Positions 2,983 through 21,716 of a stretch of 21,716 nt of DNA are shown piece after piece. The stretch is from contig BCIJ01000015.1 in assembly GCA_001599935.1 (NCBI GenBank), forward strand, positions 507,469-529,184. The letters run 5' to 3'. The DNA is from Holtermannia corniformis (Eukaryota; Basidiomycota; Tremellomycetes; Holtermanniales). Every line of letters begins with the position of its first letter. Position 1 is the stretch's first letter. The notes under the pieces are model-generated. The model did no database searches and had not been told where the DNA came from. It saw only the letters and a program-made list of their open reading frames with translations. The position numbers and the translations under genes are program-made.

Positions 2983-3759
2983 ATGGCATTGACCAGCAAT
3001 CACACACTTGCGCTCGTTTGCGACGCTCTGCTCGGATTCGTGGCTGGGCTCTTGGTGGCCAAGATCCGAGGACTTGCTGTGAGTCACTGTTCCGTCTGAT
3101 ATCGGCATTGGCTAACGATCAGGAACCCGCGGTGTTGCCGACGGCGCAGAGCCAGGCAGTTGCAACGGTCCCCATAAAGGACTCGAAACGTGTCAGTCTC
3201 CACAAGACCCATGTACGACCCCCGCTGATCGCTGCAGCCCGGCTGGTCTGGCCCATTCGTCCCGGATCCGATGGACTTTTTTCATGCCTCTACCGAAACC
3301 CATTACGAGATTGATCGACACTTAAGCCAACTCGGTCGACTAGACTCACCTCTTGACGACAATGTGCGATTCCCGCGCGAGCGCGAAATGGGCGAAAAAC
3401 GTTTCGATGTTCTTGCCCAATATGCTTCGTACATGTTCCTCCGCTACGCCGAATACCGCGACAGTCTAATGTTCTGCTTTTTGGCAAAGGACGATCCGCG
3501 AAGGGTGCTCCTCGAACAGTACTCAAACAGGACTCTTATCGACCTGGCAACTGAGATGATGCCTTTAACGGACTATCTCGACCAGGTGGACCGGGTTTTG
3601 ATGGATACTGGCGATCCGGACGCTCTCGAGTCGATTCGACAACTTGATGTGTACCGACAGATCGAGGAGATGATTCCGCGAGGGTGAGTCTGTTTCTCAG
3701 ACGCGGCAAGGCTGACGAACAGGGGCGCGCATCTCCTTTACCGCGAGCCCACTGAATGA
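2983..3759 (+). CDS. Family B membrane-anchored protein B1, intact (unknown function)
   Basis: I do not recognise this family. Four exons (2983-3078, 3123-3191, 3238-3683, 3723-3759) encode 215 aa. The introns are 44, 46 and 39 nt, all GT-AG with CTAAC, CTGAT or CTGAC branch sites. Exon 1 is 32 codons, as in B2, and encodes a hydrophobic segment (about residues 8-27) followed by Lys and Arg. By the positive-inside rule this suggests an N-out anchor with the body in the cytosol. Exon 3 opens with PGWSGPFVPDPMDFFHA, the family signature, then an H-x-EID motif, FPRER and KDDPRR. The last exon adds GGAHLLYREPTE, matching NAH in B2 and B4. Reading on without the last splice gives a different tail that lacks this match. 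It pairs head to head with A1. The start is fixed by the match to the other B starts (AACGACC-ATG context). Confidence 0.78.
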
Positions 3760-4203: not shown

Positions 4204-5288
4204 ATGGCTGCTGACGTTGTTGATCAGCGACGCTCCCAAAAAACTGCACTCAACGCGGTAAAGACTGCGGCGGTCAAGACAAAGAACACCCAATCGAATG
4301 CAGACCCTGCCAACGACGGTCTCGACCCCACCGCCAACGGGTCCTCCTCCAACGAGGAATCGACCACCGCCGCCGCGACCGACCTTACGACGTCCGAACC
4401 AGCCGGTGAAACCGCCGTCGCCAACGAGGATTTCAAGCTCTCGTCGACAGACGAGAAAGATGCCGACCTGATGCTCGAAGCCGCTCGGCGTCTCGTCGAC
4501 GCAGAGCCAAAGCGCCAGACGGAAGATTACCAGCGCAAGATAGACGCCAGGCTGGAGTCGTTCTACTACCAGATCGACCAGGCGAATGCGACGCTGAGGA
4601 GAGAGGTGACGCTCCTCAAGGTCAATCCGAGGCACCGCTTGCTGCACCGACGCTGACTGACGCGCAACTCGGGAGGAAAAGGAAGCGCGCGACCCAGCGT
4701 ATTTTCCCGTACTCGCCCACTCGGCCTCCCATCTTCTCGCAAAGGCAAAGGCACCCACTACAAACCCTTCCAGCACCGATGCCTCCTTGCTCTAGCGTTG
4801 CGTGCGTTCAAGCGGTCGAAGTAGGCGCGATAATGACAATTGGCAGAAATCGTCAACGGCTTCGAGCGCTTCTTCGCCGAAGAGGAACAAAAACCCGAGG
4901 GCCAAGGCCAGAGAGAACCAGCGAAACGTCATTGCGCACCCGCACAATGATCTCGCGTCCTTCCTTGACTAAATTCTTCGTGAAATCGCCGCAATGCACC
5001 CTGGAAACCTCTACGTGCTCAAGGGGGCACTGCTGGGCATCGACCCACGGGTCGTTCGCGACATCCTCGAGGCACGTCAGGAAAGGCTCGAGACGACGGC
5101 GACGAGGCGATGACTGCCTTTGACCCTTTGGCGTGCGTCGAGCAGAATGCGAGGGCCGAAGCGCAGGCGCAGAATGGGAAGATGTCGGCCAAGGAGGCTG
5201 CGAGCAGGGCGGTTGAAGAGGGCAGCAGTGGGCCGATGACCCGCGCGAAGGCGCCGACAAGGCTAAGGCTCGTCGTGGCAACAAGTAG
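4204..5288 (+). pseudogene. Decayed gene of unknown function
   Basis: I do not recognise the product. Exon 1 (4204-4620, 139 codons) starts with MAADVVDQRRSQ. It has a Ser/Thr/Asn/Glu-rich disordered part followed by a charged helical part (KIDARLESFYYQ, LRREVTLLK). A probable 55-nt intron (4621-4675) joins it to EKEARDPAYFPVLAHSA. After that, good coding fragments continue but only across lesions: an in-frame TAG at 4793, a probable intron ending near 4855, a frameshift around 4912-4930 (between FFAEEEQKPEG and VIAHPHNDLASFLD), a TAA at 4970, and a change of frame near 5104 before EAMTAFDPLACVEQ and a lysine-rich end with stop at 5286. Several lesions in protein-like sequence make a pseudogene likelier than an intron-rich live gene. 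A short intact protein ending at 4795 (178 aa) is possible. Confidence 0.45.
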
Positions 5289-5372
5289 GGAATGCCGCTG
5301 GTAGATCAGACTCGGGATGTACAGTGATTGCTGTGATACCCAAATTTACAGCCGGCATGCGACCACTTGCCG

Positions 5373-6340
5373 CTACCAGATCCATTTCCCGTCAGCGCTG
5401 TCCCGGAGCACAACAGACAAACCTCGAGCTTTTTGATCTCCCAGCGGAGATGGCAGCCTTCGTCCTAAAGAGTGTAAGCCGCGTTCTGCGAGAGTCAGCC
5501 CCAATTGGCCAGCACGCACGTCAGCATCCAAAGTCGCTTGCATGAGACTGTCGAAGCCTCGGATCTCCGTCAGAAAATCGATGACCGCTTGTTTCTGTAC
5601 GGCATGAGTACGCTGGAGCACAGATTCGTGCGTACCATCAATTGCCTGAGTGGGTACGTGCGTTTCTGGCCGGCTCAGCGCGATCTCAACGGATCGAAAA
5701 CGTACCATGAATCCGATAGGAATCTCGATTCCATACAGCTTGGCACCACCAGTCGACGTGCATCTCGATTGCACGCTTCTTCGTGACCCAGATGCGCTCG
5801 AGCCACTTGTACGGTGTAGTGCTCTCCCAGATGTGAGGGTTCTCGGGCATCGCTCGCTCGTAAAAGTTGCTCGTCAGCGTACTATCGATAAGCCGCAACC
5901 CACTCGTCATATCCATTAGGGTCGGCCTCTGCAATCTCCTCTAGTGCATCGTCGATCCTATCGCGAACTCGGCTGCAGCGGTTGAATCGCTTGACGCAAG
6001 TTTGGTGCTGAAAGTCGTCCAGCTCGGCCTCGACTTGGTTCAGCTACTCTTCGCACCACTATGGGCGTTAGCAGATCCTCTGCAGTCTACGACGAACCTC
6101 TTGCACGAGGCCGAGTACGACGAGCTTTTGGCCAATGTTCATGGTGGATGGTGATGGCCGGTAACATCCCGGTGGCGACAAGCAAAGTGTCGCACTGGCC
6201 TCACTCGGTGCAACGAGCTCGACTGTTGTCATCATCTCATCCACCCACTGGCATCTTACACTCTGCACGACCTCTACACTTTGAGTTTGGGTGGACGTTT
6301 CGCGTTTCAGCAGCGTTTCACATTGCCTGTGCGATCTCAA
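5373..6340 (-). pseudogene. Degraded coding region, unrecognised
   Basis: The minus strand carries a chain of protein-like fragments in changing frames. They are 6068-6340, then a charged helical piece at about 5890-6050 (LNQVEAELDDF, RDRIDDALEEIAEADP, GYDEW), then a Trp-rich piece at about 5740-5870 (NPHIWEST, WLERIWVTKK, HVDWWC), then a frame to 5373. Some interruptions could be introns: CTGCTAACGCCCATAG at 6059-6074 looks like a branch point plus acceptor. Others are plain stops. No catalytic motif is recognised, and no similarity to families A or B is seen. It could be a decayed gene or a transposon remnant. Confidence 0.25.
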
Positions 6341-6511
6341 GCTTTGCGGTGCGATCTCACGACGAGAGTAACTCTCAATGAGAAAACCCGGTGGTGAGCT
6401 GTCAGCACTTGCGTGGATGCAGGTGAGTGCCGAGCAGATTGTCTTTGAACGGCCGACGAATACATTTCACAGTGCATCCCAATCAGACAATCAAACCCTC
6501 TTCACCGAACC

Positions 6512-7098
6512 TCACGAGCTCAACGACATGGCCTCAGGCCACGTCTGCCCGTCAATCATGCGCAGCTGGTCCTCAAAGCAGTCGTCCTGTAGTTGTAAGG
6601 TCAGGTCAAGCGGCTGCATTCCACATGTGGATGCAAGCGACGGGACACCGCAAACCGGACAAGGACGTCGAACCGATGTGGATCGGCGGGCTCGACCGTC
6701 TCGAATGGCTTCCAACTCGGTCCGAGGCTGTTGACGAGCAGCTGTGCGACGTGGCGACGTGTGGCGACGTGGTCCGTGCCTTCGATGTGCTCCTCGATGG
6801 CGCTCCAAGCGGCTTACTAGATCTTTCGTCAGCACCGAAGGATCAGTTCAAGACCCACCAGCTCCATCAGGAACGAGTACCGGGTGTCGATCGCACGCAT
6901 AACCAGACGGAGCTGCTCGAGGTGGTATGTCGGCTCGTCGACATCATCCCTGGTGAGTGTCTCGCCGGCTGCTACAGTTCGGCTGTTCCTCTCGAAGAGC
7001 TGCAGAGCACGATCGAGGTGACTGCGCTCGATGACGACGAGGACGGCGAGGATGCGGTCGGGAATGTTGACAAGGCGAGGTGCAAGGGGAATGGTCAT
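6512..7098 (-). pseudogene. Family A copy A4, disrupted by two nonsense codons
   Basis: By alignment there are three exons. Exon 1 is 6859-7098 (80 codons, ATG at 7098 in CACCATG context). Exon 2 is about 6625-6822, and exon 3 is 6512-6586. The last exon encodes 24 residues containing QLRMIDGQTWPEA, directly comparable to LQKIDPQTWEE in A2, which is also 24 residues. Exon 2 carries AQLLVNSLGPSWKPFETVE and FAVSRRL, close to A3. Intron 1 is 36 nt with the same GTGCTGACGA-x-AG end as A3. Where A3 reads Thr-Trp-Glu-Ala after the acceptor, A4 reads Ile-stop-stop-Ala (TAG, TAA). No other donor/acceptor pair keeps the frame. Like A3, it lacks the VWD...YP segment of A1 and A2. A 299-codon frame on the opposite strand (6427-7326) is its shadow. 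Confidence 0.65.
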
Positions 7099-8540
7099 GG
7101 TGGTGGTCGTTGCTGGGGGTTACACGACAGTAGCCACCCATGTCTCGGGTCCGCTTGGTGGCGGGGCATTCGTGACAGCCTCTCCACACTGGTAGATTCC
7201 TCTACACTGCTCGGCAGTGCAGCACTGCACCCATCTCTCGTCGATCGCTTGACATGTCCCTTGATTGTGCCAGCCTGCGACTTGTCAGCTGAAGCTGGAC
7301 CACGCGCACAACCTATTCTGCCGTAGGGGTCACACGCAGCTGCTCTTTCGGGTGACTCGGTCAGGCAGTCGATGGACAGTGTCGATATTCCGTCGGTCCG
7401 GCTGATGAAGGGGTACGCAAGTTGAATGCATGAGGCGATCTCTTGCCGACTGAATGGACCGATGTGTCGAGCTCGCGTGAGATTCAGAGCCACGTATGAT
7501 ACAGCAACTTTCAGTCAGTGTGTAGTACAGTACATGCGTTGCGTTATACATTGATAAGCTCATTTCGTGTGTGGGATGCAGCGCGCTGTCTGCGCACTAT
7601 AACCGGTACACTCATCCTCGAGCGCTGTCGCCGGTGATATCTGAAGACCGCTGCTCGTCGGCACTCATATGACATGACACTGCTCGTTGGCCTTGAGTGC
7701 ACAAAACATCTAGCAGTCAGCCGGAGCCACAACGACGCCTGCTGATGAGGCGGAAGCGGTGTGCACAAGTGCGCTTTGCCGGATGCACGAGACAGTCAGT
7801 CGCCTGGGCGACTCCGGCAGCGAGGATCTTCCATATACGGTGCTAGCTCTTTGAGCCGCCGTACTCGGACACCGTGCATATGCTCATTGTGTTCCTGCAG
7901 CGTGATCTCACCATGTCGCAGTATGAAAGCTACATGGAAGGACGGTAATATTTACAAAACGCGATGCACGCGTTGGAGCGGTCAAGTGCACTAGTACGCT
8001 GCATAGTCGTCGTTGGGACCGGTTGACGGTGCTACTGAGCATCTCAGCTGCTCCGATCGTTGAGTACATGCACCGCGTCTGCGACGCAGGCTTGGCAGGT
8101 CTCTGGTACCACAGCAGATTGTACCATGCCTTGCGTATGTCACCACGAGCCGCTGAGCAGCCGCAATCTCATATGCCCCACGGGCCACTCGGCATCTGGG
8201 CTTTGCTTCATGGGGGTTACACTTTTCCGCTGCAGCCCGAGTGTCTGCAGCCCGAGTGTGGCTGTGTGACACATCGTGCGATAGATGCTCTCAGCTCGTC
8301 ATGCTCGATCTGAGACTCTCACATACAACGTATGTATCTCTTTATACGCTACATGCAACAGCTCCCTTCCCCCTACAGCTTTTCAAGGTTGTCCCACACG
8401 ACCGCGTCAATCGAGTGGATGAGACTCGAGATCGTATCCACGCTGGCAACGCCCCGGTATCGCCACACCGACCACGTGACAGGTGAGCGCCGGTTGAAAT
8501 CAATAGCCGCGCCGCCATCAGTCCCTCAACCGCAACGACC
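7099..8540. other. 1.4 kb gene-poor gap between A4 and B2
   Basis: No gene is supported on either strand. Frames are short and lack A or B motifs; no GWSGPF-like block is present. Visible small features are an exact 15-bp tandem duplication (8230-8244 and 8245-8259, CTGCAGCCCGAGTGT) and a CACGTGAC octamer at 8473-8480, just upstream of B2. By analogy with A1/B1 and A2/B4, this gap stands where a short divergent promoter might once have been. Confidence 0.4.
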
Positions 8541-9351
8541 ATGGTGTGCATCAGCATCCAGACACTTGTCCTTATGACCGCGGTGGCCCTCTGCTGCTTA
8601 CTCTGGCTCTCTCACTACCTCTTGCGCAAGCTCAATGTACGTGGGTGGTCCGATCAGCGCTCTTGCTGACAGCGGCCAGTCAGCACGAGCGACGCGGTCA
8701 ATTCGGTCAAATGACGAAGTCCTGCCCTATACGTCAGAGAAACAGCCTGCAAGTACTCTGAAGAGCGTCCAATACGTGAGCGGGCAGGATATCTACTACG
8801 CTGGTCGTTGCTGACAGCGCAGTTTGGTTGGTCCGGTCCCTTTCTGCCCGATCCCATGGAATTCTACCATGCGCCTCCCGACATCCACTACGAGATCGAT
8901 CTGCAAATGCGCAAGCACGGCCATCCTATGTGGGACACGGCTTGCTACCCTCGGCAGCGGTGGCCCAATGAGAAATCTTCATCTATCTATACCGCCTACG
9001 CCTTCTACTCGCACGAACGCTACACCAGCTACCATTGGAATTTGCACTTCCTTCTACCTCTAGACGACCCTCGCCGAGCGATCCTACAGACGTTCACGTC
9101 CGATTTCTTTCAAACGATCAAGGACGAGATTTTCAAGACAATCGAAGTCTACCTCGAGCCATTGGAGAACGCTCGACGATCCGGCGATCCTGAAATCATC
9201 GAATACGTCCAGTCAGAAAACGAGTGGCGTGGCTGCGACGAGGCCGAGTTGAATCGGCGAATCGAGAGGGTGCGGCCGCGAGGGTTGGTCACTGTCAGCA
9301 CTGCTCGTACCATGCTGACATTTCAGCAACGCCCATCTACCGCACGTGTGA
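8541..9351 (+). CDS. Family B membrane-anchored protein B2, intact (unknown function)
   Basis: Four exons (8541-8636, 8680-8775, 8823-9283, 9327-9351) encode 225 aa. The introns are 43, 47 and 43 nt, each with a CTGAC branch. Phases are 0, 0 and 2, the same as B1. The start context is CAACGACCATGG. Residues about 6-25 are a hydrophobic anchor, followed by a basic stretch (LLRKLNSARATRSIRS), which suggests N-out topology. The body begins FGWSGPFLPDPMEFYHA, then H-x-EIDLQMRKHG, an aromatic stretch (Y/F/W-rich, about residues 103-125), LDDPRRA, and a C-terminal acidic/basic helix ending RVRPRG and NAHLPHV. It shares most blocks with B4 and fewer with B1. The nearest A copy (A4, 1.4 kb upstream, opposite strand) is a pseudogene. 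No catalytic motif is recognised. Confidence 0.8.
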
Positions 9352-9491
9352 GTGATCTCATTAGGGAGGCTTGGCAGACCAGTGATCACAGTTGATGATA
9401 TGCACAACTTGGCAGTCTCCACATTCCTCGCAACAGGCTGATCCACCGTCGCTGACATAAACGCCGACTTTGGCGCAAGACATCCACAACC

Positions 9492-10250
9492 ATGTCGCTG
9501 ACCGATCGACCCCTCGCGCTCCTCTGCGTCGCTCTGCTGGGGTGTGGGATCGTACTGTTGAACGCGCTGCTTCAGAGGCCTGCGGTGAGTGCTCGTTGCT
9601 TCGACGACGTTGCTCACGTCTAGCAGCCGGAAGTGTTGCCGACAGCGCATCGCCAACCCGCTGCATCCTTTACCCTCAAGAGATGAAACGTGCAAGTCCC
9701 ACGTCCATCAGGAGTCACGACCGACCGCGCACGGTTGGTCTGGGCCGTTCCTCCCGGATCCGACAGACTGTTTTCATACCCCTACGGAAATCCACTGCGA
9801 GACTCGGTCAACTGAACGGACCTCTCTACAACGATGTACGTTTCCCGCGTGAGCGCCAACCTTTCGAAGACCCATTGGAACCTTTGGCAATTCTCCTTGT
9901 ACATGTACGTGCGCTAACCACCACAGCAGCCTCAATTGCCCGTTACCTTTGGACGATCCACGCCGAGCAGTCAAGCAGTATCCAGCGGAATTCTTCATCG
10001 AGATGGGGAATGACATTGCCTGCAAGATCGGCCCCAGCTACAGTGGGCTGTCGAGACGGTCGATCCGGAAGAGCTCAAGTTTATTCGTCAGCAGCAGTGG
10101 AGTGTGACCGCGGCAGAGTTGGACCAGAGGATTGAAGAGGTGACTTCACGAGGGTGAGTCTCTCACAGCAAGACAAAGCTGACGACCAGCGGCGCGCACC
10201 TCTTTTCCCACGAGCCCGGCTCTTCAGCATGGATTGACCAAGGTAGGATG
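9492..10250 (+). pseudogene. Family B copy B3, frameshifted
   Basis: Exon 1 (9492-9584) is intact and encodes a 31-residue anchor (MSLTDRPLALLCVALLG and on) close to B1. Exon 2 after an acceptor at 9623 or 9626 matches B1 (EVLPTAHRQ against AVLPTAQSQ). It then loses one base and hits TGA at 9684, and the following donor has become GCAAGT. The signature exon starts GWSGPFLPDPTDCFHTPTE, then lacks 20 bp present in B1 (after the CACTGCGAGA block near 9803). Later fragments in other frames match LNGPLYNDVRFPRER, LDDPRRAVKQYP and AAELDQRIEEVTSRG. The terminal splice and GGAHLFSHEP are preserved at 10147-10220. Several independent frame breaks mean no functional B protein can be read. Confidence 0.75.
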
Positions 10251-10291
10251 TCGACTTGCATGAGCAAGACGAATACATTGGCTACCCGAGG

Positions 10292-10555
10292 GCAGAGCTG
10301 GACCAACAGCTTGAAAAGGTAGCCACGCGATTGCAAGTCTCTCACTGTATGGCAAATCTGACGACTGTAGCGAGTGTCTCGACGATGACGACCCTAGCGA
10401 GCATCTAGATGAGTTTGGCTCTCCAGCCTGGACTGATCGACCCAAGTCCAGGTGAGTACAATCGGCTTCTTGCTGCTTGTCGACTGACAGTGCGACGTAG
10501 TGCCCATCAGCTAGCACAACTGCAACCCGAGAAGATCTATGGAGTTGGACGATGA
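10292..10555 (+). repeat. Tandem partial duplications of the B terminal exons
   Basis: Directly after B3 its last-exon region recurs. 10292-10332 encodes AELDQQLEKVATR, parallel to AELDQRIEEVTSR of B3. It is followed by a 38-nt intron-like stretch (10333-10370) that starts GCAAGT instead of GTGAGT. The next exon-like piece (10371-10451) resembles the B3 tail (EHLDEFGSPAWTDR against AHLFSHEPGSSAWIDQ). It is followed by a good donor GTGAGT at 10452, acceptor GTAG at 10500, and a third tail, AHQLAQLQPEKI, resembling AHHFQALAIQEKI of B4. The unit is the B 3' end, repeated and diverged. Whether any of it is transcribed cannot be told. Confidence 0.55.
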
Positions 10556-10856
10556 TACAGAGATCTACTACACGAGTTTGATGATATTGATGTCCTACGG
10601 GGAGCTGGGTGAGCATAGGTAGTTTGGAACACACGACAGCACCGCGAGCCTGCGCTTTTTATGGTCAAAGGGGTCGCAGAAAGACCTCGTCTCATCGTCA
10701 TCACCCAACGTCCCGTGTCCGATTCCATCACAGTGTCCAATTGAGTTGTACGAGAGCGTTACAAAACCAGGCAATGTTTGTCTTGAGCTGTTCATTCGCC
10801 AACGATACCAATCACAAGCATATGCACCATTATAGAAGATACAGCACTGCAAGAAC

Positions 10857-11623
10857 CTAGATAATCGTTGTTAACACCTCCTCCCACGTCTGTGGATCAA
10901 TCTTTTGCAGTGCAACCTCAACGTCGTCATTCTGCGCAGCGTCAGACTACTAGGATCCCAGCAGTATAGGCGAGAGCTCACATACCGCATCGCACAGCCC
11001 TCTAGTGATCGCCTGTGACATGACTCCGTTGAGGAGTGTGTGCTGTTCGGGTGCTAAAGTCCACTTGCCTTGGAATGGGACCCAGCTGGAGCCCAAGCAC
11101 CAGAGAATAATTTGCGCAAATTGCTGCCGAGTACAATCATGCGCAGCCCCGTTTGCGATGTCGCGCGCCCGCTCGGCCCAATGGTGTACCTCACGAGGGG
11201 TTGAACCCTTGTGGTTGTAGGAGGCAGGTGCGATGTATGGGTAGTTGGGATACCGCGGGTTGTTGGGGTCTAGGCGATGACCGTCCCAGACCTCACGCAC
11301 GGCCACGGCGAGAGCCTGAGTGCATCAGTCGCTGTTCAAACCTCTCCGCACGAACTCACCGGTGCTATATCCCGAGAGTGCTTTGCCTCGAGCCCATCAA
11401 TACTAACTGGAAACTCGTCCAAGTCTTCGACAAACGCCCAGCACTCCTCTTCTGCCATGAGACCGCTCTTCTCGACGATAGCGACCATTATGCGGCCCCT
11501 GCGGTCGATGCGCTCTTGAAGTTGACGGTGCCCGTTGAAGCGTACTCGAGCTACATCCTGAGCGAGTTCTGGTGTAGGATAAGGTTTGCGAGAAGGATGG
11601 GTGGGGGTGGTCAGGGAGGACAT
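10857..11623 (-). CDS. Family A protein A2, intact (unknown function)
   Basis: Three exons, 11360-11623, 10986-11315 and 10857-10931, all phase 0, encode 222 aa. The introns are 44 and 54 nt. Intron 1 has GTGAGT, CTGAT and CTCAG; intron 2 has GTATGT, CTGAC and GCAG. The ATG at 11623 has context ACCGCCATG. Exon-intron layout and conserved blocks match A1: VREVWDGHRLDPNN, YPYIAPASY, STPREVHHWAER, a W-x-PF block, QAITRGLCDA, then a last exon with L-xx-ID and QTWEE. The N-terminal exon is the most variable part. No signal peptide or membrane span is seen, so it is probably soluble. It is divergent from B4, with 173 bp between start codons. The function is unknown and no enzymatic motif is visible. 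Confidence 0.78.
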
Positions 11624-11796
11624 GGCGGTTGTGATGTACAACGGGACGTTCCGGGACTCAGTACTCCTGCAAATCCATGTTTGCATTCCGCCTGGAGCGG
11701 GCGACCCGCCTCGAACCAGTCGAGAAGCCACTGTCACGTGACTGGCCATTTAGATGTCATCAGACTCGTTCGCCGTTCCCCTCTTCTCGCAACGAC
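11624..11796. promoter_or_regulatory. Shared intergenic region of divergent pair A2/B4
   Basis: These 173 bp separate the opposite start codons of A2 and B4. The octamer CACGTGAC at 11735-11742 lies about 60 bp before the B4 ATG. The same octamer lies about 66 bp before the B2 ATG (8473-8480). CACGTG is the core E-box bound by fungal bHLH proteins; that a bHLH factor acts here is inference. Confidence 0.4.
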
Positions 11797-12559
11797 ATGC
11801 TCTTCAGATTAATCTGCCATCTGGTACTCGCGCCGCTTGCGCTGCTCCGAAGACTGGTTCAGCAACCGACTGGCGCTCTTCAGAGACTCGTCGGCAGTGT
11901 CTTTTGGTACTACTCATCCCTGTCACCACAACCGCCAACGCCAACGCCCACGGTCGACTCGTCTCACGTACGTGCAGAAACACATCACCCAACCGTTCAC
12001 ATCTCACAGCCTGGCTGGTCTGGCCCTTTCCTCCCGGATCCAATGGAGTTTTTCGACGCGCCTCCCGACGTGCATCTCGAGATTGACCGGAAAATGGAAC
12101 AAGCAGGCTGCCCGATGCGCGACCGAGCCCGTTACCCCTGGAAACCCACCGACATCCCCATGTACACAATCTACTCATTCTTTGCCCGGTATATGACTAT
12201 ACGCTACAACGAATACGTTCGTCATGTGCTCCACCTGCTGCCCGAGGACGACCCTCGCCGGGAGGCATTGGCATCTCCCCAATGGTATTTTTTTGGCAAA
12301 ATGGCCGACGAAATCAGAATAACTATCAACCCCTACCTCTGCATCCTTGAAGGTGCTTATGCCTCGCGCGACCCCCTGATGATCCATCGAGCATGCAAAC
12401 GGATAGAGGAGGAGGGCTGCAGCGAAGCCGAGTTGCGGAGGCGGATCGAGAGGGTGACGCCACGGGGGTCAGTCACTGCTGCTTCCCGATCGCGCTGATT
12501 CCAACAACGCCAGCAACGCACACCATTTCCAAGCACTAGCAATCCAAGAGAAGATCTGA
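11797..12559 (+). CDS. Family B membrane-anchored protein B4, intact (unknown function)
   Basis: Three exons (11797-11967, 12010-12467, 12514-12559) encode 224 aa. The equivalent of B1/B2 intron 1 is not found; the first exon runs 57 codons. The intron before the signature exon (11968-12009, GTACGT...CACAG, 42 nt) is a multiple of three without stops, so unspliced RNA would also be readable. The last intron (12468-12513) has GTCAGT, CTGAT and CCAG, and yields the tail NAHHFQALAIQEKI, matching NAH in B2. The N-terminus MLFRLICHLVLAPLALLRRLV is hydrophobic then basic, a likely anchor. The body begins PGWSGPFLPDPMEFFDA, then H-x-EIDRKMEQAG, EDDPRRE, a helical part and RRRIERVTPRG. An in-frame upstream ATG at 11677 exists. 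I chose 11797 because it lines up with the other B starts (AACGAC before the ATG). Confidence 0.78.
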
Positions 12560-12675
12560 CGGCGCTGAGAGGAAAGCGAGAGGAGGTTAACGGCGTTCTG
12601 AGAGGAGAGGAGATCAAACAACATCAAACGAAATCTTGGTCTTGTCATATCTATGCATGCCGCTACGACCTACAA

Positions 12676-15398
12676 CTAGACGGCGACGCCGTCGACGCCG
12701 TTTGTGACCTCTTCGACCTCTGCGTCCTCGACGACGCCTTCTGCCCGGGCGGCCGCGGCAAAGCTAAACGCCGGGCGGACCTCTTTCTTCTCCTTTGGCA
12801 AGTCCTTTTTCACTGGCGGAGGCGAGACGACCTTTTCTTGCGAGTCGGCACGCGACGGGTGGACGCGCTTGGGCTGGTCGCGAGGTTCGGCCTTGGCTTT
12901 GGCTGCAGCCTTGCGCTCCTCTTCACGCGCTTTGCGCTCTTCCTCGCGCTTGGCCATGCGCGCAGCCGCTTCGGCTTCACGCGCGGCAGTGTCGATCGGC
13001 TTGGCGTTGCCAAACGGCGACGCCTTGGCCGGCGTGGTGGCCGACGAAGCCGACCCGGCGTCACTTGCCGGAGGAGGGGTCGAGGTGGTCGAGCCGGTAC
13101 GAGGAAGCAGGTTGAGCGCGCGCCGGGTGATTTGCGGCGAGTTGGGGTTGCTCTCGCCATCGACACTGCCTTGCCGGCTGTTCAAGGTCGAACCTTTGCG
13201 TGCGCCACGCCAGTCGCGGTCTTCCGTCTCGGTCGTCGGCGTTCTCGGCTGACTCGGTTCAGGAGCGCGGAATCGTGAGCCTCGCGACCACGTCTGCTCA
13301 CTGTCCGCTAGGCCTGGGCTGACAGCTGCCGGACCGCGATGAGGCGGTGCCTCACGACCAGTGTCAAGAGGCCGAGCACTTCGCCAAGCGCTCGCATCAT
13401 CGGCACCAGGACCTTCACGCTGGAAGCCTGGGCCTGAAGACTCGCGCCGCGGGGCACCAGCCGCAGGGACAAACTTGCTGCCTCGCGCGGCCGACCAGTC
13501 GCGGTCCTCGTCGATACGGGGGCTGTCGAATGACCGTCCGGGACGAGACGAAGCGGCAGGGGTAGGAAGGGGACCGGTACGACGCCATTGCGACGTCTCG
13601 TCGGCGAGCGATGGGCCAAAGCCGCCGCTCCGGGAGGTGGCTGACATTAGCGATTTCAATCACGATTGTCAACTTACGAGGCTCGGCTACGCTGATCCGC
13701 ACGGTGCGCCCAAGCAGTTGCCCACCCGTCATCTCGAGCGCCGACTTGAGCCCGTCCTGGTCGCTAAACTCGACATAGCCAAAGCCCTTGGGCTTGCCGT
13801 CGTGGTCCTTGATCAATTTGTGCGATACAGTCTGAGGTCAGCGCTGTCTGCGAGACGATGACTCACGCTAATGCCGGTGAAGAAATCTTGGAGGTCCCCC
13901 TCGCCCGTCTCGAACGTGAGGTTGCCGACAAACGCCGTGTACGGCGGCCGGGTTGGGATCGGGAGCTCATCACGGGGTGGTCCCCGGTCGCGGTCTGCCA
14001 GTGCCGGGCGGCTCTCAAAGTAGCCGGGATCACCGCGGCGTAGCGCGTTGGGGTCCTTGGGCGCAGCTAGGGTCGTCAGCATTGCTCGAGTGCAGTTGGC
14101 CGGAGTGCAGGGTGTGGCAAGTGTGATGTGCGTGAGTCAAGCGCGGCCAAGCCGGCTGCCAATTGTTCTATGTTGTTGCGTCGCTGCTATCCGACAGTGA
14201 ATACCTGAATGACAGCTGCAGGGCATGGTGCGCCTGCTACGGCGCAGGAAGCGCGGACCTAGATCTAGACAGGTGATCATTGCAAGCCCGTCACTGTCGT
14301 ACTTGAACATTCTGCCAGGCAAAGCGGCCACCCCCGGGCGGGACCCAGCGTCGATGCAGCAGTTGATCCTCGTACGGAAGCAACCTAGACGCCGACATAA
14401 AGTTCAGCAGAGCACGTCTCAAAGCCAAGCCATCGTATTCGATCGCCGAACTGTGACGCAGCGGTGTGAGCACGTGTGACAATGGCGTCTCGATGGCAGC
14501 CTTTGGTGCGAGCACATCGCGCTGTGATCCGCAACCCGCATGATAAGGGTACTCGGGTGCGACCGAAGACAGCGATTCTGAAACTCATGAGGTCCGGGCC
14601 GCCATTCCGTAGGATCGTCTTCCAGACCCGGTCTTGTCGATGTGCTCTCCGTAAAGCGACGGTCAGGGCGACACAAGCAGCAGTTGATCCAACCACTGAC
14701 ACGACGAGCACGAGCGATACGTGCTCATGTGGCCATCACCGGCAGCCAGACGGCTACAAGGATCAAACTCACAAGGGCACAACGAAGCCGAGTGCACGTC
14801 GCAGCCGGCCGGTTAAACGGCGTGCCGGGCAGCGACTGGATCTCACTGAACACGCGGCCCGTGGGTTTTCAAGGTCGGCGATCGTTGCTACGACCGTACA
14901 GCCTCGAATGGCGATCGAGCAGCGGTGTTTCGCGAGGCTGGCCGACAACACATCTTGCCCGTGGTCCGGTTCCAAAATTTCTCCCTCAAGACATCTCACC
15001 GCCGCGTCCAGCCCGATCCCTTTCAAACCCCGACAAAGGACTCACGCGCCGTTGGGAGATCGTCAGCTTCGTCTGCCCACGACCCTGTGGCTGTTGGATT
15101 AGTCCCGACGCGTCATGGTATCGGGTTGGCGAGCGGGAGGTTTAATGCGATTGGGTCGATCCGAGGTGATGTAGATGTACGATAACGAGGAAAGATTCGT
15201 CAGCGCTAATCCTTGCAGGACACGTCGAGCGTGAAGACCAAACTCGGTAGAGATAGACTCCGCCCGACGCCTTCCTCGGACTCACCCTGATCGGCCACAA
15301 AGTCGGCGAGCGTCATCTTTTGCGCCTTTTGCTTCTTGGGAGCTGCAGCGCGGATGCATCAGCACCCTCCTACACCCTCGGTACGCGTACGCACGCAT
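12676..15398 (-). CDS. TIF3: Eukaryotic translation initiation factor 4B (eIF4B/Tif3)
   Basis: eIF4B is a cytoplasmic RNA-binding factor that stimulates eIF4A helicase and mRNA recruitment. Six coding exons (15395-15398, 15286-15342, 15046-15084, 13867-14066, 13678-13831, 12676-13640) sum to 1419 nt, 472 aa, with all phases joining. The N-terminus reads MPPKKQKAQKMTLADF and then GSWADEADDLPTA, the usual eIF4B start. One RRM spans about residues 75-152, with RNP2 AFVGNL (78-83) and RNP1 KGFGYVEF (115-122). After it come repeated arginine/tryptophan motifs (DRDWSAARG, DRDWRGARKG, TWSRGSRF), a long Lys/Glu/Ala-rich helical stretch, and a low-complexity end (TNGVDGVAV). The first coding exon is only ATGC. 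Intron 3 (14067-15045) is 979 nt, against 35-52 nt for introns 1, 4 and 5 and 201 nt for intron 2. The ATG at 14082 lies inside that intron's branch region and is not the start. Confidence 0.93.
14067..15045 (-). other. 979-nt intron of eIF4B with unassigned content
   Basis: The donor is GTGAGT at 15045, the branch GCTGACG lies near 14080, and the acceptor is CCCTAG at 14067. The flanking exons join in frame (DDLPTA|PAPKDPNAL). The content is GC-rich and non-repetitive to the eye. Two stretches share GGATCAACTGCTGC (about 14354 and about 14688 on the minus strand). Frames of 74-108 codons on the minus strand and 167-208 on the plus strand exist, but none resembles a known protein or families A/B. 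It may be an old inserted element or host a non-coding RNA. Confidence 0.55.
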
Positions 15399-15565
15399 TG
15401 CTGCTATTGATCTTGGTTGTTAAAGTGAAGAAAGCGTTGATGCGGTTGAAATGTTGCAAAGGGAGGTACAAACCCCTTGAAACGGCGATCGGCGTTATCC
15501 GGCGTTATCGCGCGGGGGTTAAGCGGCCAACTTTAGCGATAGTATAAACTGCATAGACCAGACCA

Positions 15566-17649
15566 CTAGCAAATGAACAGCAGGTTGGTGTCAATCGGGT
15601 GCGAAGCCGACAGTTGCTGCGTGTGTCAGGTGCGTTAGAGGATCACACACACGGCGCACCGGCTTCTGCGAGTACTTGTTCCGGAGCTCGTCCCGGATCG
15701 TGTTCAAAAGCTGCTTGTAGCTCTGCTCGGGGTACTTGTTGAGCGCGGCGATGAACGCGTACGACATTGCGCCGGTGGCCACGGAAGCGACTTGAGTGTC
15801 GGCGCTCTGCGGCGTGTTAGCGAGTGGGGAGTGCACGGCGCGCGAGAGGTCAAATTGAGGAGCGCATTGGGAGAAAATGGGTAGCGCGCCGGGAGAGGCC
15901 ACGGCGATAGGCGGAGTCATAATAGACGTTGGCCGCACACGGTCGGAACACGATAGCGCCAACGCACCGTTTGGTCATCCTTGCAGCCGCTAAACTGGAT
16001 ACAGTCCGCGGGCGAAGTCTTGGTCTGGCGCGCGCGCTCCACAGCGCCCGAGTTACTGCCCATCATCTGCTTGCCAATCCTACATGCTATCAGCGCCGTT
16101 GCTCCACACAAGTGCCCAAACTGACCCCATGAGCCCCTTGAGCATGCCGCTCGTGTCGCCCCTGCTGTCAGTACGAGCTACGCGCGCCGCCACCTACTTG
16201 AGGTAGCTCATGCCGCTGTTGAGGAGTCCCTGGCCGGCGTCTGCGAGCAGGTTGGGCTCCTTGATGACCCCCTCGGTCGAGTAGACGTAGGGTAGATCCG
16301 ACGCTGTGCCGGAATGGCACGAGTCGAAGATCATGGTCAGCCGGCAGCCGGCCGGAAGGGGCTTGACGAGCACGTCGTGGCTGATTGTCAGTGCCGTTTG
16401 GCGGATGCAACTCACACTACGGTGTCAGCTGGTTCAACCAGAGGAAAACTCACTTTCATCATCAACAATATGGCCTGCCTGCTTGAAATCGAGCGGGTAG
16501 ATGACTGCGATCAGCTCACGCAAACACACGACGACCCACCTTCATCATAGCCGTCATCCTCGTCACCGTTCAAATCCTTAGTCTGCCCGCCGTGACCAGA
16601 ACTGACCATCAGCGCGCCCCACACACCCCGCAACGCACTAGTGGAAGAACAAACTATCGTTCGGCTGAGCACCCTGCACGAGCCAGCGCATCGCCTGAAG
16701 CATATTGGCGCGCGTCGGGATCTGGCGCGGGTTACGCGCGTCATCGGTTAGCATGACCATGTCTTCCGATCGGTACTTGTAGCGGTCTACCGTTAGCGCG
16801 ATCACGCGGGGGGCACTCACCGATCAGGAATTTCTGCACATTGTGCGCGTCGTTGATACACCCGGCTAGCGCTGAACTCGTGCCGACGTAGTTGATCCCG
16901 ATCTGCAGTCAGCAAGGTCGGCGAGAGGAGAGCTTACGCAAAGCGCCTTGCGCTTGCCGGTGCCTGCCAGTTCAGCGTATGGTAACTCGCGTGCGCTAAC
17001 CTACACTGCGAATACTGAAAGTAGGGCTGCTGCACGCCGCCCTGGCCCTGCATCTGTGGACCATAGTGCTGCTGCTGCGACGGTGGGCGATCTGTCGGTC
17101 AGCTCGGCTCATTCACGACGGCAGACCTACGGGGTGCACCTCCAGGCGGGTGGTTCGCGCGCTGATACTCTTGGTTCGGGTTATACCCCGCGCCACTGCC
17201 GTCAGCCCAAGTCTCCCAGATCGAACATACGTTTGCGCATAGTGCTGCTGAGGAGGAGCACCCGTCGGCACGCCATAACCCGGGTTATACCCATCTCCGC
17301 CGTAGCTAACTCGTCAGCCCGCTCTCGAGACGCATCAACATACCCTCCATACTGCTGCTGCTGCTGCGGAGGCGGAGGCGCATTGTAGCCTCCCTGCTGG
17401 TAGCCGTTTCCGCCAAAGCTCGGCGGTGGAGGCGGTGCGCCGAAGCCTCCCCTATGACTACGTCAGCCATAGTCATGCACTTGTGCGCGACGGACCCCGG
17501 GAACGGGGGTGGTGGCGGCTGGCCGTAGCCTCTGCGATGTATCAGCATGAGTTTGGGCGCTGGGACTGGACTTGCGGCTGCTGGTTGGCCCATGGCGGCG
17601 GCGGCGGCTGGTTGTGATGGCCGCCTCCGGGGTACTGATTCCAGGACAT
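15566..17649 (-). CDS. MCA1: Class I metacaspase (Mca1/Yca1 type), 17 exons
   Basis: Metacaspases are caspase-fold cysteine peptidases that cleave after Arg/Lys, act in stress response, aggregate clearance and cell death, and are usually calcium-dependent. My model has 17 exons, 1353 nt, 450 aa, with every junction in phase. Residues 1 to about 153 form a Pro/Gln/Gly/Tyr-rich prodomain with a Q5 run, as in class I fungal enzymes. The peptidase domain starts about [15 protein letters not shown]. Catalytic His240 lies in FFHYSGHGG and catalytic Cys296 in IFDSCHSG. The p10-like end has [14 protein letters not shown] and [11 protein letters not shown]. Introns are 34-46 nt except one of 161 nt (15807-15967). 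Exon 12 is a single base (16416). Without it the HDVLVKPL block and Cys296 fall out of frame. Start 17649 gives [10 protein letters not shown]. It lies between the Ubp3 and eIF4B genes on the same strand. Confidence 0.95.
16381..16453 (-). other. Two back-to-back introns separated by a 1-nt exon (metacaspase)
   Basis: Exon 11 ends in the first base of a codon (GAT GAT GAA A, 16454). Intron 11 (16417-16453, 37 nt) has GTGAGT, CTGAC and CGTAG. The single T (plus-strand A at 16416) follows. Intron 12 (16381-16415, 35 nt) has GTGAGT, CTGAC and ATCAG. Exon 13 begins C CAC GAC GTG. The joined codon is A-T-C (Ile), giving [13 protein letters not shown], where the family usually has DDEMH or similar. 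Removing both as one intron puts the catalytic-Cys exon out of frame; keeping either intron brings a stop. Confidence 0.85.
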
Positions 17650-17907
17650 GTCGGGTTCTATCGATTGCTGCGAGGTGGGAGATGACGCTTGTGCGATCTA
17701 GTACAGTAGCTGGGTTCTTCCGGTGATCAAGAAGCGCTCCAAGCTGTTGTCAACGGTTGTAGTGGTGGGAAGACCGCTGCGCGACTGGATCCGCGTCACG
17801 GGGACAGCTCTAGCACGACGCTCGCATGAGCAGTGCTAGGAGAAGTAGCAACCGCCGCTACCGAATCTAGCAAGACCAGCCAGTCTGCACTACCATGCAA
17901 TGCATTG

Positions 17908-20850
17908 CTAGACTCGCTGATAGAAAGCAAGATACGCGCACTTTTCTCTCCTTGCGAGCCCGACTTCACCCGCCTTGCCTTCAATCGCCGCCTCGCGCGA
18001 GATCACAACCTGGTCCGTCGGGACGGGCGCGATCGACTCGTCGTCGAGGTGGATCCACCCAGAGCCGTCTTGGCGCGCGACGCAGGCGGTATAGTGGCCA
18101 CCCGAAGCGGTTGATCCGTGGTGGTAGATGACTGTGGGTTAGCCGGTACTACGATGAGAGAGACATACCGCCAAAGAGCTTGTATTTGGTTGATTGTGTG
18201 TTGCGGCGCGCAGGCGAGATGATTTCTGTCTGTCAGCGGGGGTGTGCGTGGGATGGACTCACCTGGCGGGATGACGAGCTCGGTCCCGTACGCGATCGGC
18301 TTGGAGCGCTTGACGACGCGGTGCTCCTTTGCGTCATACACAAACCGCTTGAGGTGGAGGATCAAGCAAGGTGGCAGCGTCTCGACGTATACTTGCTTTG
18401 TCGCATCCACGTTGGCGCCGCGACTCGCGCTCCAGACGTCGCGCACGGTCTCTGGCTCGTTGAGGTGCCGCAGCGCGTCAGCAAGCGTCACGACCGCAGG
18501 GTGGTCGACATCAAGCTGGAGCGGCTGATACGGCTCGAGCGTGACGCTGTCTTTTTGCCCGGGCGTATGCAAGACCGAACGCAGCTTGCCGCCAAAGATG
18601 CGCGAGACGGCCGATTCCCTAGCCTCGGTCTGCCGTCAGCAACGCCCAGACTGGGTCAACTTACATTCCGCACAACGTTGGTCTTTTGCTTTTTCCCCAC
18701 TTCTAGCCAGCCATCCGCGCCAGGGCTGACCGGGCGCTCGACCTCGCGCTCCTCGTGCTCGCCCTCCGTCGTCGGTGCTGGCACTTTCGGCCCATTCGTC
18801 GCCGGCTGCGTGCGCGCGTGGAGCAACAGCAACTCTTCGTGCAGAGTGTTGAGAAAGAAACCGAGAAACTCTTCCGCGTCCTCTTGGTGCCCTCTGCGCA
18901 TCGAGTCGAACCGCTTGTTGAGCTTCATCGCTTCATAGACGTTTTCAGGCAGGAACGCGTCGGTGCTGTCGAGCTTGTCGCCGTTGGCGTGGCCGGTGGG
19001 GGCCGCGGGGGTGACGGTAAACTCGCGCAGAAAGAGGATCCTGCGGGGTTAGATTATTCAGTGCCTGTCGCAGACTTACATAGCCTCGACCAGTGGTGTG
19101 CGCCGGGCTAGATCGGCCTGAAGGCGCTTGCCGAGCTCTTCGAAGAGCTGTGCAAAAGGCGTGCAGAACACGAGCACTTGGAGGATCTGCAGGCGTCAGC
19201 CTAGCCTAATCAATCCGTGCAACGCACCGAGTTGGCAAAGCACATGTTGCCCATGTTGACGAGTCCACGGGGGATCGTGACAGTCCGCTCGCGACCCTTA
19301 CCCTTGCCCTGATCCGGCAAAATGCCTTCGCTGAGCAAGCGCGCAAACTCTTCGGCAGGTGAGCGTGCAGCCGCAGCAGCATAGTTGAAGACGGGTGGGC
19401 GTGTGCCGTTGGGTTTCGACGGGCCTGCTTCGGGTTCGACGGGGGTGGCAGAGGGTGATGCGGAGGCGGTCGGGGCGGTCGAAACGGGTTTGGACGTGGA
19501 GGCGGAGGGTGTAGTGGAAGAGCTTTTGACGAGCGAGGCCCAGCTGACGGGTTTCGGGGCGGATGTTGGCGGGGCAGTGATGTGTGCGGGAGTGGTAGGC
19601 GCCGGTGCCGGTGCAGGGGTGGCGGCAGCAGGGATGGGTGCAGCGGTGACAGGCGCAGAGATGTCGGGGGCCGGTGCAGTAGGAGCAAGAGCAGCAGAAG
19701 CAGCAACGGCCGCAGGGAGCTCCGGTTCTGCCACCGTCGCTACCTCTTCAGCTTGCGCTGGCGCGAGGGACGGCGTCGAGTCCAATACGGGCGGCGGCAC
19801 CACATTCGGCGTAGACGGTGTCGCCTCCAACTCTTCCGCCTCAATCGAGCCAAAGACCAACTTGACCTCGCGCACTTGCTCCTCGCCAACGCCAACGCCA
19901 AACACCATGGCCTTGCCCGGTGCCGGTCGCGCTCTCCGCCGAGTTGCAGTCAAAGCCGACGGCAGCGTCGTCGCTTGTTCGCGCACCCTCTGCGGCATGG
20001 TCGACTGCGTGCCAAAGGACATGATCGGTGCGGTCGAGGGGTCTTGCGGCCGGCGAGAGGACAGGACATAGCTGCTCGGCGCGGGGTGGGACAGGTACGT
20101 ATAGGGTGCAGGGGGTGACGATACTGCGTGCTGAACATCCGGCACCGACGCGGCTTCTGGCTCAAGGACCACCGGCGCTTTTGTAGGAGTGACTTGCGCT
20201 GCACTGAGGGCCGGACTGGCTCCCGTCGTCGGCGGTGTCGATTCGGCGACACTGGTCGGCCCACTCGCCGTTGTCGCCTGGCTCGGCTGAGGCGGGACAG
20301 GCATCTGATGATAGTGCTGGACAGGATACGGGTACTGATACGGGTTCATGCCGAGCATCATTGGCGGATAGCCCTGGTACATCATTGCGACGTGGGGTGG
20401 GATCGGGGCCGGGTTGTACGGTGGATGGGTGACCGACGCATAGACTGGTTCTGCCGCTGGTGTTTTCGGGGCGTACGTGAACCCCTGCGCTGCCGGGTTC
20501 AACGTCGTGGTGGATGCCTGGACGGGCTCGACCGGCGGTTCAGGTGGAGGCTGAGGCTGCTGCTGCACGGGCGGGTGAGGGTACTGCTGCTGGATCGGGT
20601 GGTAGTGCAGATGGCTCATTGGCTGCTGCTGGTGCTGCGGCCTGTACGCTGGGTGATAATACGGCGGCTGAGGAGCGTAATCGTACCGAGGCGGTATTCT
20701 TCCGGCGTAGCTCGGCCCCGCCTGCGGATAGTAAGGCTGATTCGGCGGGATCATGCCATTGTACTGGTGCTGCCAAGGCGGCCGCGATGGCCCTGCTTCT
20801 GCCTGCGGTTGAGCGTGCGTCGCGGTGGGAGTGGACGGCGGGATGAACAT
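17908..20850 (-). CDS. UBP3: Ubiquitin carboxyl-terminal hydrolase, Ubp3/USP10 type
   Basis: This is a cysteine deubiquitinase of the USP (C19) family. Ubp3 with its cofactor Bre5 removes ubiquitin from trafficking and ribosome-related targets. Six exons (19228-20850, 19080-19186, 18665-19040, 18263-18629, 18169-18225, 17908-18131) sum to 2754 nt, 917 aa. Residues 1 to about 520 are a long low-complexity Pro/Gln/Tyr/Ala region, probably disordered. The Cys box GLVNMGNMCFANS has Cys537. GHQEDAEEFLGFFLNTLHEEL follows, then an insert, then LPPCLILHLKRFVYD. The His box GSTASGGHYTAC has His856, and WIHLDDESI supplies the acidic residue. The end CAYLAFYQRV is typical. I chose ATG 20850 (GTGACCATG) over an in-frame ATG at 20958, whose added 36 residues look like leader sequence. 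Introns are 35-41 nt. Bre5 is not in the window. Confidence 0.95.
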
Positions 20851-21136
20851 GGTCACACTAGCAAAGCATGCGGGGTCTCGGCTGGGTTTCGAGTCGTGAT
20901 CTTGGGCTCGTTGGGATCGTACGGACTGTGGCTTTCTCCTACGCTGACTTGCAAGCAAGAGCTCGACCGCTGCTGATGGTGATCAAGATGTTCAAGACGC
21001 CGTCGAGTCGATGGGGCGAAACTCGTCGTTGCTGCGGTAGGCGCGCGAGTTAGGCTTCCGCAACTTCTGCAATAGGCGCATGTGTAGGCTCGGGTGGCTG
21101 CAATAGGCACCGAAATAGGCGCAACGCAAAGTGGCA

Positions 21137-21624
21137 TCACGCATCCCCTCGCAGCTGGAAAAACTTTCGAACCCAACTCCGGCCCTCTCCCCGCTGGCTC
21201 TTAAGGATACCATCGTACAACCGAGTGTAAAAGTGCGGGTCGTGCGGTGGTGACAGCGTCGACGCCGTCGGCGGATACTAGCCACGTCAGCGCGGTCGTC
21301 CGATCTCTGACCCACCTCTGTCAACGCAGCGTCCCCCTTTAACCGTTCAATCACACTCAGCATGCCCTCGGCGCGCTCGAGATCAACAGGCGAGAGCTTG
21401 GCGACGGCCGCATCGAGCGTTTCGGCCGATGGCAGCTGGAGTCCGCCGGCGCTCAACTCCTTGGCGCCATCGGATGGCCCGGGGAAATCAAACGCGCGGT
21501 CGACAAACCCCTGCAGCGCTTCGCCGAGCTGCATCGCTGGCTTTGGGCGGTACGGCGAGGGCGGGAGCGAGTGCAGCGCGGTGATCAGCCGCGGGTACAG
21601 GGTCGTGGTGGCGTTGAGTGACAT
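21137..21624 (-). CDS. Small protein, possibly Cbp6/UQCC2-like mitochondrial factor
   Basis: Two exons (21316-21624, 21137-21277) joined by a 38-nt intron (GTGGGT, CTGAC, GCTAG) encode 149 aa. The N-terminus reads MSLNATTTLYPRLITALHSL, then a helical part (MQLGEALQGFVDRAFDF), a Glu/Asp/Ala-rich central helix, then YPPTASTLSPPHDPHFYTRL and an end GRSWVRKFFQLRGDA. The layout (short helical LY-x-R-LL start, YP...P-x-YYTRL block, basic Trp-containing end) recalls fungal Cbp6/UQCC2, which supports cytochrome b translation and complex III assembly in mitochondria. This identity is tentative and rests on memory of the family pattern. The gene itself is well supported by an in-phase intron. It lies 286 bp upstream of UBP3 on the same strand. 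An unspliced 210-codon frame from the same start ends in low-quality sequence and is rejected. Confidence 0.65.
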
Positions 21625-21716
21625 GTTCTAAAGAGGTCAGCTCGGGCAGGATAAGTGGCGGCAGACGAGGCCTCTGCATGTGTAGAGTAGGCCGCTGAGC
21701 GACACTCGACGAATGG

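Follow-up and report, generated by a model that had tools for sequence, protein, structure and literature searches.

The metacaspase gene and its split codon

The window, by which we mean the whole stretch of 21,716 nt that was analysed, is the end of contig C15 of the Holtermannia corniformis genome (20.2 Mb, 55 contigs). It carries a metacaspase gene on the reverse strand, whose coding sequence was rebuilt exon by exon from position 17649 to 15566; the resulting model contains 16 introns, all GT-AG, and encodes 450 amino acids followed by a stop codon. The product matches PF00656 (Peptidase_C14) in Pfam with E=4e-44, confirming the initial annotation of the gene as a metacaspase, and a search of solved structures returned the Metacaspase-1 structures 4f6o (E=2e-121) and 7qp0 (E=1e-119). 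Type I metacaspases have a caspase-like domain, SGHGG and DSCHSG motifs, and a Pro/Gln-rich N-terminal region, and the window gene has the features of this Peptidase_C14 type. The closest metacaspases among the matches listed are tremellomycete, the top match among the homologues listed being Cryptococcus deneoformans metacaspase-1 (82% identical). The gene and its central features are as follows.

15566..17649, - strand: type I metacaspase gene (MCA1-like), 17 exons, CDS 1353 nt, 450 aa (GT-AG gene model, PF00656, homologues)
16454..16504, - strand: exon 11, 51 nt, ending in ...GAT GAT GAA A, of which the last A is base 1 of the split codon (gene model)
16417..16453, - strand: intron 11, 37 nt, GTGAGT ... 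CTGAC ... TAG (GTGAGT...CTGACACCGTAG; sequence reading)
16416..16416, - strand: predicted exon 12, a single T, the middle base of an ATC (Ile) codon (gene model, enumeration, paralog on contig C33)
16381..16415, - strand: intron 12, 35 nt, GTGAGT ... CTGAC ... CAG (GTGAGT...CTGACAATCAG; sequence reading)
16198..16380, - strand: exon 13, 183 nt, starting C CAC GAC and holding the Cys motif DSCHSG (gene model)

The T at 16416 is adjoined directly by the AG of one intron and the GT of the next, both introns having full splice signals. The back-to-back introns of 37 and 35 nt around one T, first noted in the initial annotation, were recovered in the rebuilt gene, as was the ATC codon divided over three exons. 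Such lengths are normal here, since 13 of the remaining 14 introns measure 34-46 nt and one measures 161 nt. The Cys of the DSCHSG motif in exon 13 is presumably the catalytic Cys of the enzyme.

Window positions 4410-21716 recur as the first 17,307 bases of contig C43, with one N as the sole difference, in an unmerged assembly overlap; the C43 copy of the site is therefore redundant and represents no independent allele. Elsewhere in the window, ORFs at 3271-3687, 8808-9395, and 11677-12498 have a common stretch, M[DE]F[FY]xA[PS][PT][DE]xHxEID, and would appear to be members of a single small gene family; none of the three has a Pfam match. An exon of a probable ubiquitin carboxyl-terminal hydrolase is located at 18003-18572 on the reverse strand, where the match to PF00443 is weak and under the cut-off.

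GT-AG solutions were enumerated over introns 11 and 12 plus 12 nt on either side, allowing a single intron with a minimum of 25 nt or two with a minimum of 30 nt each. The 37 + 1 + 35 arrangement was the sole two-intron solution that was in frame and free of stops. Three one-intron solutions were also in frame and stop-free, each with the donor GTTTTC, which scores -3.5 as compared with 7.4 for GTGAGT and 0.8-8.0 for the gene's 14 other donors. When the T is skipped, the frame breaks after DDE and a stop is reached ahead of the catalytic Cys; retention of intron 11 likewise ends the product before the catalytic Cys, and retention of intron 12 gives DDEM followed by a stop. The original argument from the reading frame, that the catalytic exon is out of frame without the T, is upheld by this loss of frame and by the single two-intron solution, and the base is needed both for the frame and for the conserved protein.

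The motif CTGACN{3,12}AGNGTRAGT, which describes the junction, occurs 16 times on the two strands of the 20.2-Mb genome, two of these being the window site in the two overlapping contigs. This corresponds to ∼4e-7 per position and ∼3e-5 for any one interval of 73 nt. There is no genome-wide enrichment of the motif (23 matches for the reversed pattern, 16 with a scrambled branch site), and the argument for a one-base exon therefore rests on place and frame and not on the motif alone.

The paralog and the homologues

A second metacaspase gene is present on contig C33, with protein segments 56-74% identical to the window gene, and a single-nucleotide exon was read at the homologous site.

G000:C33:80753-80638 (in locus L012), - strand: putative 1-nt exon T (80688) between introns of 65 and 50 nt (sequence reading)

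The junction reads C/GTGGGT...(65)...CAG/T/GTAAGT...(50)...CAG/A CAC GAC. The split codon, C/T/A (Leu), is homologous to the ATC of the window gene and gives DDE-L-HDVLI; with one intron alone, a frameshift and a stop result. The C33 site also admits nine one-intron and 12 two-intron in-frame solutions, and two of the one-intron solutions use the good donor GTGGGT. Among all nine one-intron and the best eight of the 12 two-intron solutions, exactly one residue is left only by the 1-nt exon. Branch sites are weaker at C33 than in the window, and the introns of the two genes show no similarity at matching positions. Tandem duplication of one intron was considered as the origin of the window pair and rejected, because introns 11 and 12 are no more similar than shuffles (their alignment score was reached by 34% of 1000 shuffles). 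Among six intron pairings compared, only window intron 11 against paralog intron B gave a low value, 1.6%, which is not significant for six tests.

When 32 proteins were placed in a tree, the copy on C33 clustered with second copies from Kockovaella, Papiliotrema, Naematelia, and C. depauperatus, its placement in the MCA2 group having moderate support (92/91) that lies under the program's star threshold. The window gene lies across that split and by path is nearest to the first copies of Kwoniella and Cryptococcus. Two metacaspases, MCA1 and MCA2, are reported for C. neoformans (PMC3219705). Because the two H. corniformis genes are on opposite sides of the split in the tree, the duplication probably predates the separation of Kockovaella, Papiliotrema, Naematelia, Kwoniella, and Cryptococcus, and the 1-nt exon is itself probably older than the MCA1/MCA2 duplication; the alternative explanation is a parallel origin in the two paralogs. 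That two diverged paralogs have both kept such an exon suggests that even an exon of minimal size can persist for long periods in a fungus with introns of ∼35 nt. For other species, the indication of a homologous exon is indirect and comes from annotated proteins.

Three protein searches, with 120 matches listed from each of 7182, 2990, and 1798, together supplied 310 different proteins. Exactly one residue separates DD[ED] from H in 291 of these 310 listed homologues (281 read by script and 10 by eye), the script-read residue being M in 188, L in 54, I in 38, and V in 1. Ten of the 12 listed proteins missed by the script hold one residue; the other two, Phaffia P0029 and Marasmius P0041, are shorter just upstream. 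The best solved structure, 4f6o, aligns gap-free, with ddEMHD against ddEIHD. An HMM was built from 103 sequences (157 candidates) picked to exclude named Tremellomycetes. Against this HMM, the window gene scored 244.0 with T and 241.2-242.1 with the other three bases, and the C33 paralog scored 184.3 with T and 181.0-181.9 with the others, a small margin in both genes. That T yields a hydrophobic residue is weak evidence, because any NTN codon does so.

The remaining listed homologues include 17 that are longer at the site, and their names are Cryptococcus, Kwoniella, Papiliotrema, Kockovaella, or Tremella, all of which we take to be Tremellales. The source of all 17 is ncbi, uniref, or nr, with no jgi, lgn, or ena contig among them. 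Of the nearest 30 proteins listed, half (15) contain an insert and the other 15 do not. Inserts of two residues were found in 14 proteins (CE in five, SE and RE in two each, and RN, SR, RD, SA, and SD), all of which are readable as N + GTNN + N, where GTNN is GTGA, GTAA, GTAG, or GTGC, that is, the first base of the codon, four donor bases, and the last base of the codon. A gene finder unable to place a 1-nt exon takes the GT four bases on (GTGA/GT or GTAG/GT), because +4 and +1 restore the same frame, and the 14 inserts fit donors moved 4 nt downstream in this way. In C. deneoformans, the insert ITDCKGR is compatible with A + THACTGACTGYAARGGYAG + G, which would be an exonised intron tail that includes the branch site, and intron 12 of this species is predicted to end in ACTGACTGYAARGGYAG. 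SDTNR and YSWLMR gave no secure decoding. Reduction of the insert to one residue raised the HMM score by 6.3-12.8 bits in all 17 longer proteins. The annotated proteins thus point to a 1-nt exon in other Tremellales and suggest that several Cryptococcus and Kwoniella species have metacaspase models with spurious residues. RNA-seq-guided annotation of Cryptococcus with a microexon search has been described (PMC3990503, PMC8022950).

Two ORFs on contigs of relatives, P0195 and P0196, cross the site intron-free with a single Leu and seem to enter an intron further on; judged by eye, they are probably intronless length markers at the site. In the Cryptococcus transcript-like ORF search with a 167-aa query, the best of the 120 matches listed (of 1798) was 86% identical, and none of those 120 was an ORF identical to the window gene or to the query. 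No DNA of relatives for the metacaspase site was found in viral contigs or the plasmid collection, and the genome-contig search returned only a cyanobacterial gene.

Interpretation of the junction

We conclude that intron 11, the T, and intron 12 very probably form a genuine single-nucleotide coding exon with its two flanking introns, probably spliced constitutively, and we infer from the sequence that exon 12 is spliced into the mRNA. A single 69-nt intron with its donor 4 nt downstream (GTGA/GTTTTC) would instead give DDE-SD-HDVLV, with two residues at the site, and would make the AG-T-GT juxtaposition coincidental. This arrangement is in frame and stop-free and is the type of model that annotators seem to have picked in the 14 related proteins, but its donor falls well outside the range of the gene's 14 others (-3.5 versus 0.8-8.0), it leaves unexplained both the full branch site, acceptor, and GTGAGT donor in the window and the acceptor-T-donor of the paralog, and the added residue, at a position where 291 of 310 listed homologues hold exactly one, costs about 8 bits against the HMM; we regard it as very unlikely. 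A one-base assembly or sequencing error that makes an ordinary intron seem out of frame is more improbable still: the 73-nt interval would suit a single intron and contig C43 is not an independent reading, yet the diverged paralog on another contig has the same 1-nt solution and the internal splice signals are complete. There is scarcely any chance that the first intron measures 25 nt and is followed by an exon of 13 nt (CTGACACCGTAGT), which would give DDE-TDTVV-HD. Although in frame and stop-free, this solution needs an intron of 25 nt in a gene whose shortest other intron is 34 nt, makes branch-site sequence exonic, and places five residues where the family has one, with a score 9 bits lower.

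Each of the two short introns has a donor, a branch site, and an acceptor to itself and would be recognised by intron definition. Intron 11 would cut the codon after base one (A) and intron 12 after base two (T), so that A/T/C is common to three exons. The acceptor AG and the donor GT are one base apart, which makes two spliceosomes at once unlikely, and introns 11 and 12 are therefore probably removed consecutively; removal in either order would lead to the same product. The same deduction of consecutive removal appears for APC11 in the Discussion of PMC4674806. The metacaspase site may provide a useful substrate for the question of how two spliceosomes divide a one-base border.

Constitutive inclusion of exon 12 would be the simplest reading. 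The initial annotation had proposed that ordered intron removal offers a regulatory switch for the protease, a proposal that the present analysis does not support: the skip and retention products are truncated before the catalytic Cys and both paralogs have retained the exon, which constitutive splicing fits better. That a real 1-nt exon switches the protease on and off in a regulated way, by ordered or inefficient splicing, is in our estimation unlikely. All failure products examined end before the catalytic Cys, and in principle the amount of enzyme could be set by how efficiently the introns are spliced; however, no product of skipping or retention is a usable isoform, the splice signals surveyed revealed no regulatory element, and the flanking donors are ordinary to good (GTGAGT at 7.4, where the gene's other 14 span 0.8-8.0). 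Probable constitutive use of exon 12 is also what its retention in both paralogs fits.

Known single-nucleotide exons and further candidates

Few nuclear 1-nt exons were found in print, and the metacaspase case joins plant APC11 and VPS55 and Fusarium CYP621A. APC11 (PMC4674806), which the initial annotation had named as the known case, is a real plant example but not the only one, as VPS55 (PMC8831610) and CYP621A (PMC12940212) have also been reported. The APC11 and VPS55 microexons, as described in these reports, resemble the metacaspase exon in that one coding nucleotide lies between two introns and is required for the right protein; they are conserved over many species and were missed by reference annotation, and GTRAGT donors adjoin the exon in VPS55. 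They differ in that they belong to plants and to other genes and are supported by RNA-seq and RT-PCR, whereas the metacaspase exon belongs to a fungal protease, occurs in each member of a gene pair, and is predicted here from the sequence. The CYP621A exon, as reported in PMC12940212, is likewise fungal, supplies the second base of a codon within a conserved motif, and was found through out-of-phase boundaries with homologues as length markers; in contrast, it lies in an ascomycete P450 gene, its base is G, the composite interval is 139 nt in F. graminearum, and 18 SRA reads support it. The abstract of that report presents CYP621A as the second case of this kind and the first fungal one, with VPS55 already in print. 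A mitochondrial 1-nt case is reported from placozoan cox1. Among the entries listed from the open-access literature, none described a 1-nt exon from a basidiomycete nuclear gene or a metacaspase. Stwintrons (PMC9024468, PMC12403724) also consist of two adjoining short introns removed consecutively, but as described there one intron sits inside a splice element of the other, and excision of the two leaves no exonic base behind. A stwintron was rejected for the window site, where each donor, branch site, and acceptor is contiguous and none is split, and where removal of all 73 nt breaks the frame.

Further candidates in the genome were sought with four motif patterns, which gave 16, 1, 11, and 20 matches as compared with 23, 6, 5, and 31 for the reversed-pattern controls. 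A signal-sum score was not discriminating, the window site (6.8) and locus L027 (0.2) receiving middling or low ranks. Under a stricter frame test, 22 of 49 loci were retained, with L027, the C33 paralog, and the window site at the top. Nine of the 44 other loci were also searched as joins of 50-51 aa, and none of these nine was confirmed by Pfam. Two further candidate loci are listed below.

G000:C1:341218-341239, - strand: locus L019, DUF2838 gene, probable 1-nt exon A between introns of 51 and 45 nt (Pfam)
G000:C7:559598-559620, + strand: locus L027, candidate 1-nt exon T completing ATG, between introns of 53 and 52 nt (motif, frame test)

L019 is a probable third case. Its A would complete G/A/C (Asp) and link FLF to LCYFVN as FLF-D-LCYFVN, and the joined product, for which we take GPC1 to be the name, scores 138.6 bits against PF10998, with 108 residues on 108 positions, versus 128.2 for the +4 donor. 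In the stricter codon-based frame test it scored -3.3, its downstream frame not being the best. In-frame alternatives at L019 comprise eight one-intron and four two-intron solutions, and two of the one-intron solutions use the same good donor; the alternatives add residues. On balance, we favour a wider reading in which 1-nt exons are recurrent and long-lived in tremellomycete genomes. The metacaspase exon would predate the MCA1/MCA2 duplication and be kept in many Cryptococcus, Kwoniella, and related species, whose public proteins would be 1-6 residues too long in the interval from the catalytic His motif to the Cys motif, as annotation pipelines recover the frame by moving the donor or by treating an intron tail as exon; additional genes, one DUF2838/GPC1-like and perhaps one more, would have 1-nt exons of their own.

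L027 has no family match in Pfam or NCBIfam. Seven one-intron and 11 two-intron solutions are in frame at this locus, and some good donors occur among the alternatives at L019 and L027. With the candidate T included, the L027 join would read PPWK-M-FDMNFYPG.
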